A stretch of DNA of 64,000 bases. Origin: Microbacterium sp. CGR2. GTDB taxonomy: Bacteria > Actinomycetota > Actinomycetes > Actinomycetales > Microbacteriaceae. Below, piece by piece: positions 45,330 through 48,252 of this stretch. The notes below the pieces were generated by a model. It did not search any database. It was given only the letters and a program-made list of their open reading frames with translations, and had not been told where the DNA came from. Position numbers and translations under genes: made by a program. Where the stretch lies: contig NZ_RBHX01000001.1 of assembly GCF_003626735.1 (NCBI RefSeq), forward strand, positions 806,001 through 870,000. The letters are read 5' to 3'. Position 1 is the first letter of the stretch; each line of letters starts with the position of its first letter.

Positions 45330-45989
45330 ATGATTGAAATTTCAACCGTCGCACCGAGCGCCACGGAACGGACCCGCGTTCGGGTGCCGCTGCGTTTCGC
45401 GGACGGGTTCGCGGCGACCGCGGACGTCATCACATTCGAGGGCCTCGTCGATGGCCGAGAGCATCTGCTGCTGGCTCTGGGCGACTGGTCGGCGGCACTG
45501 GAACGCGCGCAGGACGGCGGCGAGGCGCCGCTGGTGCGCCCGCACAGCGAATGCCTCACCGGCGATGTCTTCGGTTCCGAGCGCTGCGACTGCGGGCCTC
45601 AACTCCGCGAGGCGGTGGAGCGTATCGCCGACGAGGGCGGCTTCCTGCTGTACCTGCGTCAGGAAGGTCGCGGCATCGGCCTCTACGCCAAGCTCGACGC
45701 TTACGCCCTGCAGGACTCCGGACTCGACACCTATGAAGCCAACGTCGCTCTGGGCCATGGCGAGGACGAGCGCGACTACACGGTGGCGGCGCAGATGCTT
45801 CGGTCCGTCGGCGTGGACGGGATCCGCCTGCTCAGCAACAACCCCGACAAGGCGAGGCAGCTCGAAAGCCTCGGCATCCGCGTGACGGATCGTGTGCCCA
45901 CGGGAGTGCACCTGTCGGACGCGAACTCGCGCTACCTGGAGGCCAAGCGCGATCACACCGCGCACACCCTCGACCTGTCCGCGGCGTGA
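45330..45989 (+). CDS. ribA: GTP cyclohydrolase II (stand-alone)
   Basis: Riboflavin-pathway enzyme of 219 residues that opens GTP. Zinc cysteines lie in SECLTGDVFGSERCDCG, the catalytic loop is YLRQEGRGIGLYAKLDAY, and LLSNNPDKARQLESLGI plus VPTGVHLSDANSRYL follow. There is no DHBP synthase domain, unlike the fused RibBA of most actinobacteria. The start MIEISTV coincides with a perfect 12-bp palindrome, and no ribosome site is seen. A MarR gene overlaps the 3' end by 4 bp, suggesting specialised, inducible use of GTP cyclohydrolase rather than housekeeping riboflavin synthesis. Confidence 0.93.
   Translation: MIEISTVAPSATERTRVRVPLRFADGFAATADVITFEGLVDGREHLLLALGDWSAALERAQDGGEAPLVRPHSECLTGDVFGSERCDCGPQLREAVERIADEGGFLLYLRQEGRGIGLYAKLDAYALQDSGLDTYEANVALGHGEDERDYTVAAQMLRSVGVDGIRLLSNNPDKARQLESLGIRVTDRVPTGVHLSDANSRYLEAKRDHTAHTLDLSAA
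45334..45345. promoter_or_regulatory. MarR-type operator over the ribA start
   Basis: Perfect palindrome TTGAAATTTCAA lying within codons 2-6 of ribA. TTGA-N4-TCAA sites are usual for MarR/OhrR regulators, and the next gene in the operon is a MarR protein, so autoregulation is likely. Confidence 0.6.
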
Positions 45990-46447
45990 TGAGCGATCGG
46001 CGACTCGACGACGCGGAGATGGCGACCTGGCTGCCGGCGATCCGCTTCGTCCAGCTGCTCCCCCAGGTGCTCGACCGCGCGCTCAAGGCGGAGATCGGAC
46101 TGAAGCACGCGCACTACGCGATCCTCGTCACGCTCGCCGGCGGTGGTGATGGCGCGGTCACGATGACCGAACTCGCCCGCATCGCCGGGCTCAGCCGCTC
46201 CCGCCTCAGCCACGCTCTTGACTCACTCGAGGCGCACGGCTGGGTCGAGCGGGTCACCTGCGGCAATGACAAGCGGACGCTTTCGGCGACACTGACGGAC
46301 GCCGGACGCGAGCTCCTGCGCTCGGCCGCTCCGGTTCACGTCGCGCAGATCCGCGAACTGGTGCTCGATCCGCTCACCGACGAGGAGCGCAGCCAGCTCG
46401 CCGCCATCCTGTCGAAGCTCCTCCCCGGCATCACGGCCGCCCTGTAG
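45986..46447 (+). CDS. MarR-family transcriptional regulator
   Basis: Winged-helix repressor of 153 residues. The core is VTMTELARIAGLSRSRLSHALDSLEAHGWVER, followed by the wing DKRTLSATLTDAGREL. No cysteine suited for oxidant sensing except one in the wing (VTCGNDKR); ligand unknown. Overlaps ribA by 4 bp (ATGA). It probably binds the TTGAAATTTCAA palindrome at the ribA start. Confidence 0.92.
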   Translation: MMSDRRLDDAEMATWLPAIRFVQLLPQVLDRALKAEIGLKHAHYAILVTLAGGGDGAVTMTELARIAGLSRSRLSHALDSLEAHGWVERVTCGNDKRTLSATLTDAGRELLRSAAPVHVAQIRELVLDPLTDEERSQLAAILSKLLPGITAAL

Positions 46448-46491: not shown

Positions 46492-46512
46492 GGTTCTGCT
46501 CTGAGCAGAACC
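46492..46512. promoter_or_regulatory. Palindromic operator upstream of the PopR-like gene
   Basis: GGTTCTGCTCTGAGCAGAACC, a 21-bp palindrome perfect except for the central base. Its centre is 48 bp before the start codon of a leaderless gene, a position typical for an activator. A degenerate copy lies before the clpP operon at 48238-48252. Confidence 0.65.
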
Positions 46513-46549: not shown

Positions 46550-46903
46550 ATGGCCGATATCGTCTCGCTCCCCCGCGCACCCCGAGTCCGCCGCCCGCAG
46601 CCGAGCGAGCCCGAGCCGCTGTGGCGTCAGTTGCTGGGTGAACAGCTGCGACGACGACGACACGAGCGGGAGGAGACCCTCACCGAGACGGCGGACAAGG
46701 CGGGAGTCTCGCCCCAGTACCTCTCCGAGGTGGAACGCGGGCTGAAAGAGCCGTCGAGCGAGATGATCGCGGCGATCAGCGGCGCACTCGAGACTTCGCT
46801 GATCGAACTCACGAGTGCCGTGGCCGACGAGCTCCGTTCCACCGTGGTCCCGGCATCCGCCGCGGTCTCGGCTGGGCGTGCTGCCTTCATGCTCGCCGCC
46901 TGA
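46550..46903 (+). CDS. PopR/ClgR-type XRE regulator of clpP genes
   Basis: DNA-binding protein of 117 residues with an XRE HTH: LRRRRHEREETLTETADKAG, then VSPQYLSEVERGLKEPSSEM, which closely resembles ClgR and PopR. The protein ends in RAAFMLAA. In Streptomyces PopR the two terminal alanines are the signal for ClpP-dependent degradation, giving feedback (established for PopR; inferred here). The clpP-like operon lies on the opposite strand just downstream and carries a similar palindrome, so this gene is its likely activator. Confidence 0.83.
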   Translation: MADIVSLPRAPRVRRPQPSEPEPLWRQLLGEQLRRRRHEREETLTETADKAGVSPQYLSEVERGLKEPSSEMIAAISGALETSLIELTSAVADELRSTVVPASAAVSAGRAAFMLAA

Positions 46904-46974: not shown

Positions 46975-47571
46975 TCAGCCGGCGGAACGCTCCCCCAGCA
47001 CCGTATCGACCAGCCCGTATGCCAGGGCGGCCGGTGCGGTGAAGACCCGATCCCGGTCGGTGTCGACGCGCAGCTCCTCGAGCGTGCGACCGCTGTGTCT
47101 GGCCAGGATCGCCTCCATGTCGGCACGCACACGCACGACCTCGTCGGCCGCGAGGATGAGGTCGGGGATGGCCCCACGCGATTGCCCGGCAGGTTGATGC
47201 AGCACGATCCGCGCGTGCGCCAGAGCTGACCGCTCGCCGGCAGCTCCCGCCGCGACGAGTAGCGCTGCGGGGCCGATCGCCTGGCCGACGCAGGTCGTCG
47301 CGATGCGCGGACGGATGTGCTGCATCGTGTCGTAGATCGCCAGCGCCGCACCGGGATCGCCGCCCTCGCTGTTGATGTAGAACTGAACACCGCTCTCCGG
47401 GCTGTCGGCGTCAAGGTGCAGCAGTTGCGCGATGAGCGCGTTGGCGACACCCGCATCGATCCCCGTGCCCAGATAGATGACGCGCTCGGCGAGCAGGTGC
47501 GAGTAGACGTCCATGATGCGTTCGCCACGCGGATGCTGCGCGATGACGTTGGGGATCGAGTAAGTGCTCAT
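46975..47571 (-). CDS. ClpP-like subunit lacking the catalytic serine (ClpR-like)
   Basis: ClpP-fold protein of 198 residues. The fold, oligomer handle and His/Asp are kept: FYINSEGGDPGAALAIYDTMQ, VLHQPAGQ (His125), VDTDRDRVFTAPAALAYGLVD (Asp174). But the nucleophile site, GQAASMGA in ordinary ClpP, reads GQAIGPAA, so serine is replaced by Gly100. It should be proteolytically dead but able to form mixed rings with the adjacent active ClpP, as ClpR does in cyanobacteria and plastids. Its start overlaps the other ClpP gene by 4 bp. Confidence 0.9.
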   Translation of the reverse strand: MSTYSIPNVIAQHPRGERIMDVYSHLLAERVIYLGTGIDAGVANALIAQLLHLDADSPESGVQFYINSEGGDPGAALAIYDTMQHIRPRIATTCVGQAIGPAALLVAAGAAGERSALAHARIVLHQPAGQSRGAIPDLILAADEVVRVRADMEAILARHSGRTLEELRVDTDRDRVFTAPAALAYGLVDTVLGERSAG

Positions 47572-48182
47572 GCTCCCGCCCCCAGTCCGACGCGTGCGCG
47601 GCGCCGCGGCATGATCTCGGCCAGCGACTCGACGATCTCGTCGATGAAGCCGTACTCGAGCGCCTCCGCCGCCGTGTACCAGCGGTCGTGCAGCGAGTCG
47701 TCGAAGATGCGCCCGACTGGCTGGCCGGTGTCCTCGGCGATGAGGCCGAGGACGGTGTCACGCATGTGGCGGAGGTCGTCGGCCTGGGTCTCGATCTCGC
47801 CCGCCGAGCCGCCGATGCCGGCGGATCCCTGATGCATGAGGATGCGTGCGTGCGGCAGAGCACGGCGTTTCCCCGGGGTTCCGGCGGAGAGGAGGAACTG
47901 ACCTGCACTGCAGGCGAGGCCGAGCGCCAGGGTGGATACGTCGTTCGGCACCAGTTTCATGATGTCGCGGATCGCGAGCATCGACGGCACCGAGCCGCCG
48001 GGCGAGTGGATCCACAGGGCGACATCGGCGGCCGGATCCTCCGCCGAGAGGGCGAGCAGCTGTGTCATCAGCAGCGTGCCGTTGTCGTCGTCGAGGGCGC
48101 CGTCGAGTACGAGGACGCGGTCATGGAACAGCGCCCGACGGGCCTCGGGACCGAAGTGCGGGATGGGGTTGTCTTCGCTCAT
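47568..48182 (-). CDS. clpP: ClpP-like protease subunit with intact triad
   Basis: Serine protease subunit of 204 residues. Motifs: WIHSPGGSVPSMLAIRDIM, LALGLACSAGQFLLSAG (Ser92), RILMHQGSAG (His117) and DSLHDRWYTAAEALEYGFID (Asp166). The nucleophile context ACSAG differs from the canonical AASMG, and the N-terminal FHDRVLVLDG replaces the usual RIIFLG. First gene of the two-gene operon, and most like the ClpP3/ClpP4 class of Streptomyces in arrangement. The main ClpP1P2 pair is not in this window. Confidence 0.92.
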   Translation of the reverse strand: MSEDNPIPHFGPEARRALFHDRVLVLDGALDDDNGTLLMTQLLALSAEDPAADVALWIHSPGGSVPSMLAIRDIMKLVPNDVSTLALGLACSAGQFLLSAGTPGKRRALPHARILMHQGSAGIGGSAGEIETQADDLRHMRDTVLGLIAEDTGQPVGRIFDDSLHDRWYTAAEALEYGFIDEIVESLAEIMPRRRARVGLGAGA

Positions 48183-48237
48183 GTCCCCAGCATCCGCTCG
48201 TCAGGGGCGGTGCGCGCCGGTATCTGCCCCCAGCGGA

Positions 48238-48252
48238 TCAGCCCTGAGCAGA
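48238..48252. promoter_or_regulatory. Degenerate palindrome upstream of clpP operon
   Basis: TCTGCTCAGGGCTGA (minus strand) matches the core TCTGCTC-N-GAGCAGA of the palindrome at 46492-46512 with two mismatches in one arm. It is 56 bp before the clpP ATG. Likely site for the PopR-like protein. Confidence 0.5.

Follow-up and report, generated by a model that had tools for sequence, protein, structure and literature searches.

Why should a bacterium keep, directly next to an intact ClpP gene, a second one whose product lacks the catalytic serine, and what could such a pair be used for? The question is raised by two ClpP-like genes, P1 and P2, within a 64,000-nucleotide stretch of the Microbacterium sp. 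CGR2 genome, referred to as the window (Table 1).

Table 1. Features of the P1-P2 locus, with positions counted within the window
Feature	Positions	Strand	Remarks
P1, ClpP3-type ClpP-like subunit	47568..48182	-	204 aa, full triad; ORF, PF00574
P2, ClpP4-type ClpP-like subunit without nucleophile	46975..47571	-	198 aa; ORF, PF00574
P1/P2 start/stop overlap	47568..47571	-	ATGA, 4 bp
P2 Gly100 codon	47272..47274	-	GGC, nucleophile position
XRE HTH regulator, PopR/ClgR-like	46550..46903	+	117 aa, convergent to the pair, -MLAA end (degron-like)
Tandem PopR-type operator (predicted)	48223..48252	-	TCTGCTCAGGGCTGATCCGCTGGGGGCAGA, 40 bp 5' of the P1 start codon
Single palindromic operator (predicted)	46494..46510	+	TTCTGCTCTGAGCAGAA, ~40 bp 5' of the regulator start codon
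MarR-family regulator	45986..46447	+	directly upstream of the PopR-like gene

Active sites of the paired subunits

P1 and P2 both match the Pfam ClpP family PF00574 (9.6e-53 and 4.6e-58, respectively), and their 4-bp overlap is found in 69 of the 76 genus loci. The triad of P1 is Ser92-His117-Asp166 and the corresponding residues of P2 are Gly100-His125-Asp174, both with the +25/+74 spacing from the nucleophile; in P2 the nucleophile is replaced, and His and Asp are kept. Alignment of the active sites to solved ClpPs, three for each subunit, was gap-free and placed Ser92 and Gly100 in the nucleophile column (GLACSAGQF in P1, GQAIGPAAL in P2). A sequence-only reading of this DNA had claimed the overlap, the complete triad of the first gene and, in the second, a glycine for the nucleophile with His and Asp remaining, all of which the open reading frames and alignments confirmed. 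Another serine that could be aligned as the nucleophile, the alternative named in that reading, was not found within 10 residues on either side of Gly100, a span that contains Thr92, Thr93 and Cys94. The dead subunit beside an intact one that it had described for an actinobacterium stands as well; the recurrence of this situation across Actinomycetes had escaped it. In the 76 genus P2 orthologues that could be aligned, the window P2 among them, the nucleophile column holds Gly in 69, Ser in five and Ala in two, so that glycine at this position is more than chance. The serine nucleophile of an active ClpP peptidase (S14) is present in P1 (Ser92) and absent from P2 (Gly100); apparently, P1 is the cutting and P2 the non-cutting subunit. 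The median dN/dS within 32 genus loci was 0.092 for P2 and 0.138 for P1 (496 pairs, Nei-Gojobori), and purifying selection on P2 is thus stronger than on P1 in these loci. Structure prediction of P2 gave a mean pLDDT of 48.6 and the model was not used.

The CGR2 genome carries four PF00574 genes, namely the P1-P2 pair and a second pair at 3249815-3251037, which we take as housekeeping because its neighbour is presumably the trigger factor gene. Three ClpB_D2-small (PF10431) proteins are encoded in the genome, all of them away from P1-P2, which excludes a dedicated ATPase adjoining the pair. P2 orthologues (at least 60% identity) were found in 77 of 149 genus genomes, i.e. the own genome and 76 others, with identities of 60-94% in the latter. 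At the family level, P2 matches were obtained in 42 of 299 genomes (E <= 1e-52) and at the class level in 219 of 394 (E <= 1e-50), the latter including ClpPs without a regulator neighbour, and relatives occur in many families. The best 120 of the 4015 P2 relatives (E <= 1e-50) all lack the nucleophile serine and the named relatives are annotated as 'Clp protease proteolytic subunit' or 'ClpP family protease'; a share of the 4015 annotated as Clp proteases may thus not be proteases. In two genus genomes the pair is disrupted, with P1 truncated in one (L070) and P1 and P2 lying in one disturbed frame in the other (L078), which reflects either real loss or assembly error.

Regulator and operators of the pair

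A convergent HTH gene was present within the flanks examined in 52 of the 76 genus loci and its product ended in -AA in 51 of the 52; in the other 24 loci a regulator homologue lies at most ~8 kb away, and that of G099 shares its strand with the pair. In some Microbacterium loci (L261, L267, L274, L277, L288) a gene that is presumably LigD polymerase domain-like separates P2 and the regulator. Among the 80 named loci, which include Microbacterium, Streptosporangium, Nonomuraea, Actinomadura, Nocardia, Glycomyces, Promicromonospora and Kribbella, 73 have a convergent regulator with an -AA end and two a regulator with another end; the flanks of the other five showed none. The window regulator matches the regulator beside the Streptomyces fungicidicus pair (L114) at 59% over 49 aa and scores 64 bits against the NCBIfam ClgR model, below the cut-off of 170, and therefore seems to be a ClgR paralogue rather than ClgR itself. 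A C-terminal AA reportedly marks ClgR and Lon for degradation, and ClpP1P2 is reported to degrade PopR (PMC9775585; PMC9765437).

Right-aligned upstream sequences revealed a predicted tandem 30-bp operator 5' of P1 and a single 17-bp palindrome 5' of the HTH gene. The distance to the start codon is 40-42 bp for 74 of the 76 P1 genes and, for the regulator genes, 40-41 bp in 40 of 42. The window tandem operator agrees with 19 of the 20 positions of the Y/R-relaxed consensus. At least 17 of 20 positions were matched in 164 of 175 accessory pairs, with 11 below this threshold, while the maxima in 30 mononucleotide shuffles each were 14-17 and the ten outgroup pairs all scored between 12 and 14. 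The PopR site reported for S. lividans is TCTGCC-N3-GGCGAATCTGCC-N3-GGCAGA (PMC9775585); the S. fungicidicus locus fits it exactly and the window shares its 15+15 layout. A scan of the own genome with TCYGCYNNNRGCRGA yielded 14 palindromic places versus 44 for the backward-read control, so this consensus alone defines no regulon. On contig 2 of the same genome (17029-17043; L241), a near-perfect operator-like palindrome lies 41 bp 5' of a 322-aa ORF, the spacing of both sites at the P1-P2 locus; it lies in the middle of a perfect hairpin that extends beyond it and may be a terminator.

With the PopR-controlled ClpP3/ClpP4 of S. lividans and S. coelicolor, the locus has in common two clpP genes in a putative bicistronic operon, another clpP pair in the genome, here taken as clpP1P2 from gene order, a nearby ClgR-paralogue regulator with C-terminal AA, the tandem operator, and a second subunit that has a broken triad and groups with Streptomyces ClpP4. 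The two differ in the lesion, with Gly in place of Ser here and in place of His in the seven Streptomyces-type loci, and in the P1 pocket (Trp/Leu/Arg in the window); identity to the S. fungicidicus subunits is 48% for P1 and 54% for P2. The sequence-only reading had named the PopR pair as a relative, for which the promoter, the degron-like end, the regulator and the tree all speak, and had missed that the Streptomyces-type ClpP4 has a broken triad of its own (7/7). Its likeness to ClpR found no support in terms of membership. P2 scores 152.6 bits against PRK12552, which we take to be the ClpR-like model and whose cut-off is 263, and 220.9 bits against the generic PRK00277; judged by these model scores, P2 was excluded from the ClpR lineage. 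The ClpR of cyanobacteria and plastids resembles P2 as a ClpP-fold subunit without a full triad that is partnered with an active one, and we know of no PopR circuit for ClpR. In contrast to the arrangement proposed for P1 and P2, ClpR is reported to be mixed within the ring with ClpP3 (PMC4673316).

Recurrence and history of triad loss

Percentages drawn from the following counts are not population frequencies, because resemblance to the window P2 decided which relatives were sampled and the genomes behind the 80 named loci overlap in part with those of the other set. The Ser-His-Asp triad of P1 is complete in all 176 accessory pairs counted for P1 and in 79 of the 80 named loci, the remaining locus being cut inside P1. 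At the nucleophile position of P2, the 177 accessory pairs carry Gly (89), Ala (50), Ser (31), Trp (4), Glu (2) or Phe (1), and 75 of the 80 named loci lack the serine. Seven of the 31 P2 with Ser, all Streptomyces-type, have the catalytic His changed to Gly, three have lost the Asp and 21 have the full triad; hence 156 of the 177 P2 have a broken triad, and the dead state is not obligatory. The Asp lesions are to His, Asn or Ser, and most P2 keep both His and Asp. Full triads occur in genus loci L065, L067, L077, L079 and L081 and, among the named loci, in L295, L306, L313, L314 and L315. In all seven Streptomyces-type loci (L114, L175-L180) Ser is kept and His replaced by Gly, which suggests that Streptomyces ClpP4 is probably inactive too. 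One metagenome-assembled Acidipropionibacterium (L297) has Asp at the P2 nucleophile position.

Both triads are intact in the outgroup, which consists of ten pairs after L186 was moved and includes only two known housekeeping pairs (L083, L082). L186 carries a tandem operator yet groups with the outgroup; it was treated as accessory in the triad and axial-loop counts and as outgroup in the operator, pocket and quick-tree counts. Left out were L078, P1 of L070, L187 (single ClpP), L084 (duplicate of L036) and an extra fragment in L128.

The careful tree comprised 76 rows and was built from an alignment stripped of the three catalytic positions and their adjacent columns. P2 and Streptomyces ClpP4 are split from the housekeeping ClpP2 with a support of 94 in the quick tree and 97/88 in the careful tree. 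At least seven changes between intact and broken triads are required on the 76-row tree, and 14 losses on a 187-row tree if regain is forbidden. Placing all lesions in one clade was rejected by the AU test (p 6.6e-5, which does not allow for the groups having been named after the first tree; p 0.004 with earlier row labels). Joining only the two Glu rows to the Ser-lost rows gave p 0.011 (AU, earlier row labels). Pairwise joins of lesion groups were not rejected (p 0.11, 0.14 and 0.54), which leaves the number of losses uncertain. The first lesion inferred differs between lineages: Ser loss, His to Gly, Asp to His or Asn followed by Ser to Glu, and Asp to Ser. Loss of the P2 triad has apparently recurred across Actinomycetes, through different lesions. 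Furthermore, the five Ser-bearing genus loci nest in the Ser-lost clade, and a grouping of the Ser-lost rows that excluded them was rejected (p 6.6e-7); three further Ser rows (L152-L154) are placed, weakly supported (84/36), between two groups that have lost Ser. Such nesting means either returns of Ser or many more losses. The Ser codon in the possible regain loci, TCG, differs from the Ala codon GCG by a single base, and a re-gain of the catalytic serine in the five genus loci is possible.

Absence of catalytic residues from clpP alleles is already known, as one sentence in d'Andrea 2022 mentions such alleles in Nocardia asteroides, S. coelicolor and Leptospira interrogans (PMC9067928); this remark concerns the same phenomenon and itself gives no gene, lesion, regulator or recurrence. 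Neither the link to PopR nor the recurrence nor the Microbacterium case was recognised as described among the matches listed from the open-access literature.

Probable division of labour and possible role

In the window P2 the axial-loop motif at the N-terminus (IPNVIAQHPRGER) is retained and the ATPase pocket has Tyr65 (-35 from the nucleophile) and His85 (-15), while the window P1 has no such motif and carries Trp57 (-35), Leu77 (-15) and Arg107 (+15). The motif is present in 141 of 156 broken P2, the other 15 being mostly near-matches. P1 lacks it throughout (0/155 beside broken P2, 0/21 beside intact P2 and 0/10 in the outgroup), and since it is missing also beside intact P2 and in the outgroup, the absence is old. 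Pocket residues were counted in 143 pairs in which the P2 serine was lost to A, G, W or F. P2 has Tyr at -35 in 138 of them and Phe, Tyr or His at -15 in 142. In P1, by contrast, position -35 is Trp in 140, -15 is never aromatic and +15 is Arg in 100. The P2 pocket is altered too, with His at -15 in 80 and Ala or Ser at +15 in 136 of the 143. P1 beside an intact P2 has Leu at -15 in 13 of 18 pairs, which together with the missing loop suggests that the specialisation is partly older than the loss of Ser. In mycobacteria and Streptomyces, docking of the ATPase on ClpP2 was demonstrated by mutating a set of positions that includes -35 and -15 (PMC9067928, PMC9765437). The idea of the sequence-only reading that a dead subunit would alter ATPase docking is likely the reverse of the situation, as P2, with its axial loop and pocket Tyr, looks like the docking subunit.

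The ClpP1P2 of mycobacteria and Streptomyces consists of one ring of each subunit. Mycobacterium tuberculosis strains with ClpP2 S110A or forced asymmetry grew like controls (PMC9067928), and in S. hawaiiensis ClpP1 with ClpP2 S131A retained full activity, ClpP2 docking the ATPases (PMC9765437). The expected split of P1-P2 resembles that of the mycobacterial complex, in which ClpP1 cuts and ClpP2 docks, and the forced-asymmetry strain follows the same logic (PMC9067928); the mycobacterial ClpP2, however, has an intact triad and the pair is housekeeping, essential and not PopR-type. P1-P2 looks like the natural end point of this engineered asymmetry: mutation work showed that ClpP2 needs no active site, and nature has apparently repeated the experiment in the second subunit of a backup pair.

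Taken together, the locus is likely a PopR-type backup Clp core in which P1 cuts and P2 docks, used when ClpP1P2 fails. The backup pair is probably switched on only upon failure of the normal machine: healthy ClpP1P2 would degrade the regulator via its C-terminal AA, and failure or poisoning of ClpP1P2 would let the regulator accumulate and activate P1-P2. P1 and P2 would then form stacked rings with cutting by P1 only and with the shared Clp ATPases docking on P2 only. The active site of P2 would thereby become dispensable, and could hence have been lost repeatedly. With accessory pairs of this kind, natural material is at hand for asking why ClpPs of two subunits exist.

P1 and P2 might instead be mixed within each ring in the manner of ClpR, with the dead subunit tuning rate or stability and without a separate docking ring. 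Cyanobacterial ClpP3/ClpR rings are reported to be mixed 3:4 and restored ClpR catalysis gave no faster core (PMC4673316), and most P2 retain His and Asp as if these were structural. We nevertheless consider such mixing unlikely, since the nearest studied relatives, the mycobacterial and Streptomyces ClpP1P2, are reported to dock the ATPase on the ClpP2 face and the axial-loop pattern of P1 and P2 fits separate faces. It is likewise doubtful that P1, P2 or both become part of the housekeeping ClpP1P2, retuning or inhibiting it. Their identity of ~42-43% to the housekeeping subunits and the disruption of ADEP-activated ClpP1 complexes by Streptomyces ClpP-ADEP (PMC12607617) would agree with insertion, but a self-sufficient core is the simpler explanation for a P1 with a full triad in 176/176 pairs and for both genes lying in one putative operon, and clpP3P4 substitutes for clpP1P2 in S. 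lividans viability (PMC9765437).

Catalysis by P2 through another nucleophile is highly improbable: a hidden one was ruled out by the gap-free alignment, Thr92, Thr93 and Cys94 are six to eight residues N-terminal of the position, no serine is near it, and in relatives the column is occupied by Gly, Ala, Trp, Phe, Glu and Asp. As for a decaying gene without function, the lost catalytic residue and the two disrupted genus pairs (L070, L078) would be expected of it; the dN/dS of P2 (0.092), however, is below that of P1, orthologues are 60-94% identical in 76 other genomes of the 149 and relatives occur in many families, so that decay was ruled out on dN/dS and conservation and its probability is next to nil.

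The backup core may have a further function. In S. lividans, clpP3P4 is expressed upon clpP1P2 deletion and viability needs one of the two pairs (PMC9765437). ClpP3P4 is reported to be insensitive to ADEP (PMC12607617), and beta-lactones are lethal to S. coelicolor without clpP3 and clpP4 (PMC9775585). By analogy with these reports, we tentatively put forward that the PopR-type locus across Actinomycetes could be a self-sensing, ClpP-poison-proof spare core, in which loss of the P2 active site was selected and repeated, with two apparent returns of Ser. The P1 pocket for ADEP-like activators would have been remade (Trp, aliphatic and mostly Arg versus Tyr/Phe/Tyr), P2 would have shed the active site that is trapped by covalent inhibitors, and poisoning of ClpP1P2 would stabilise the regulator and swap in the resistant core. 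The proposal is weakened by the aromatic residue (Trp) that P1 keeps at -35. If the spare core does resist ClpP-targeting antibiotics, it would provide a general, self-sensing backup. The pair and its regulator were also found on plasmid-labelled records of Tsukamurella (L113), Streptomyces (L114), Prescottella (L115) and Embleya (L112), and thus the pair may move horizontally.
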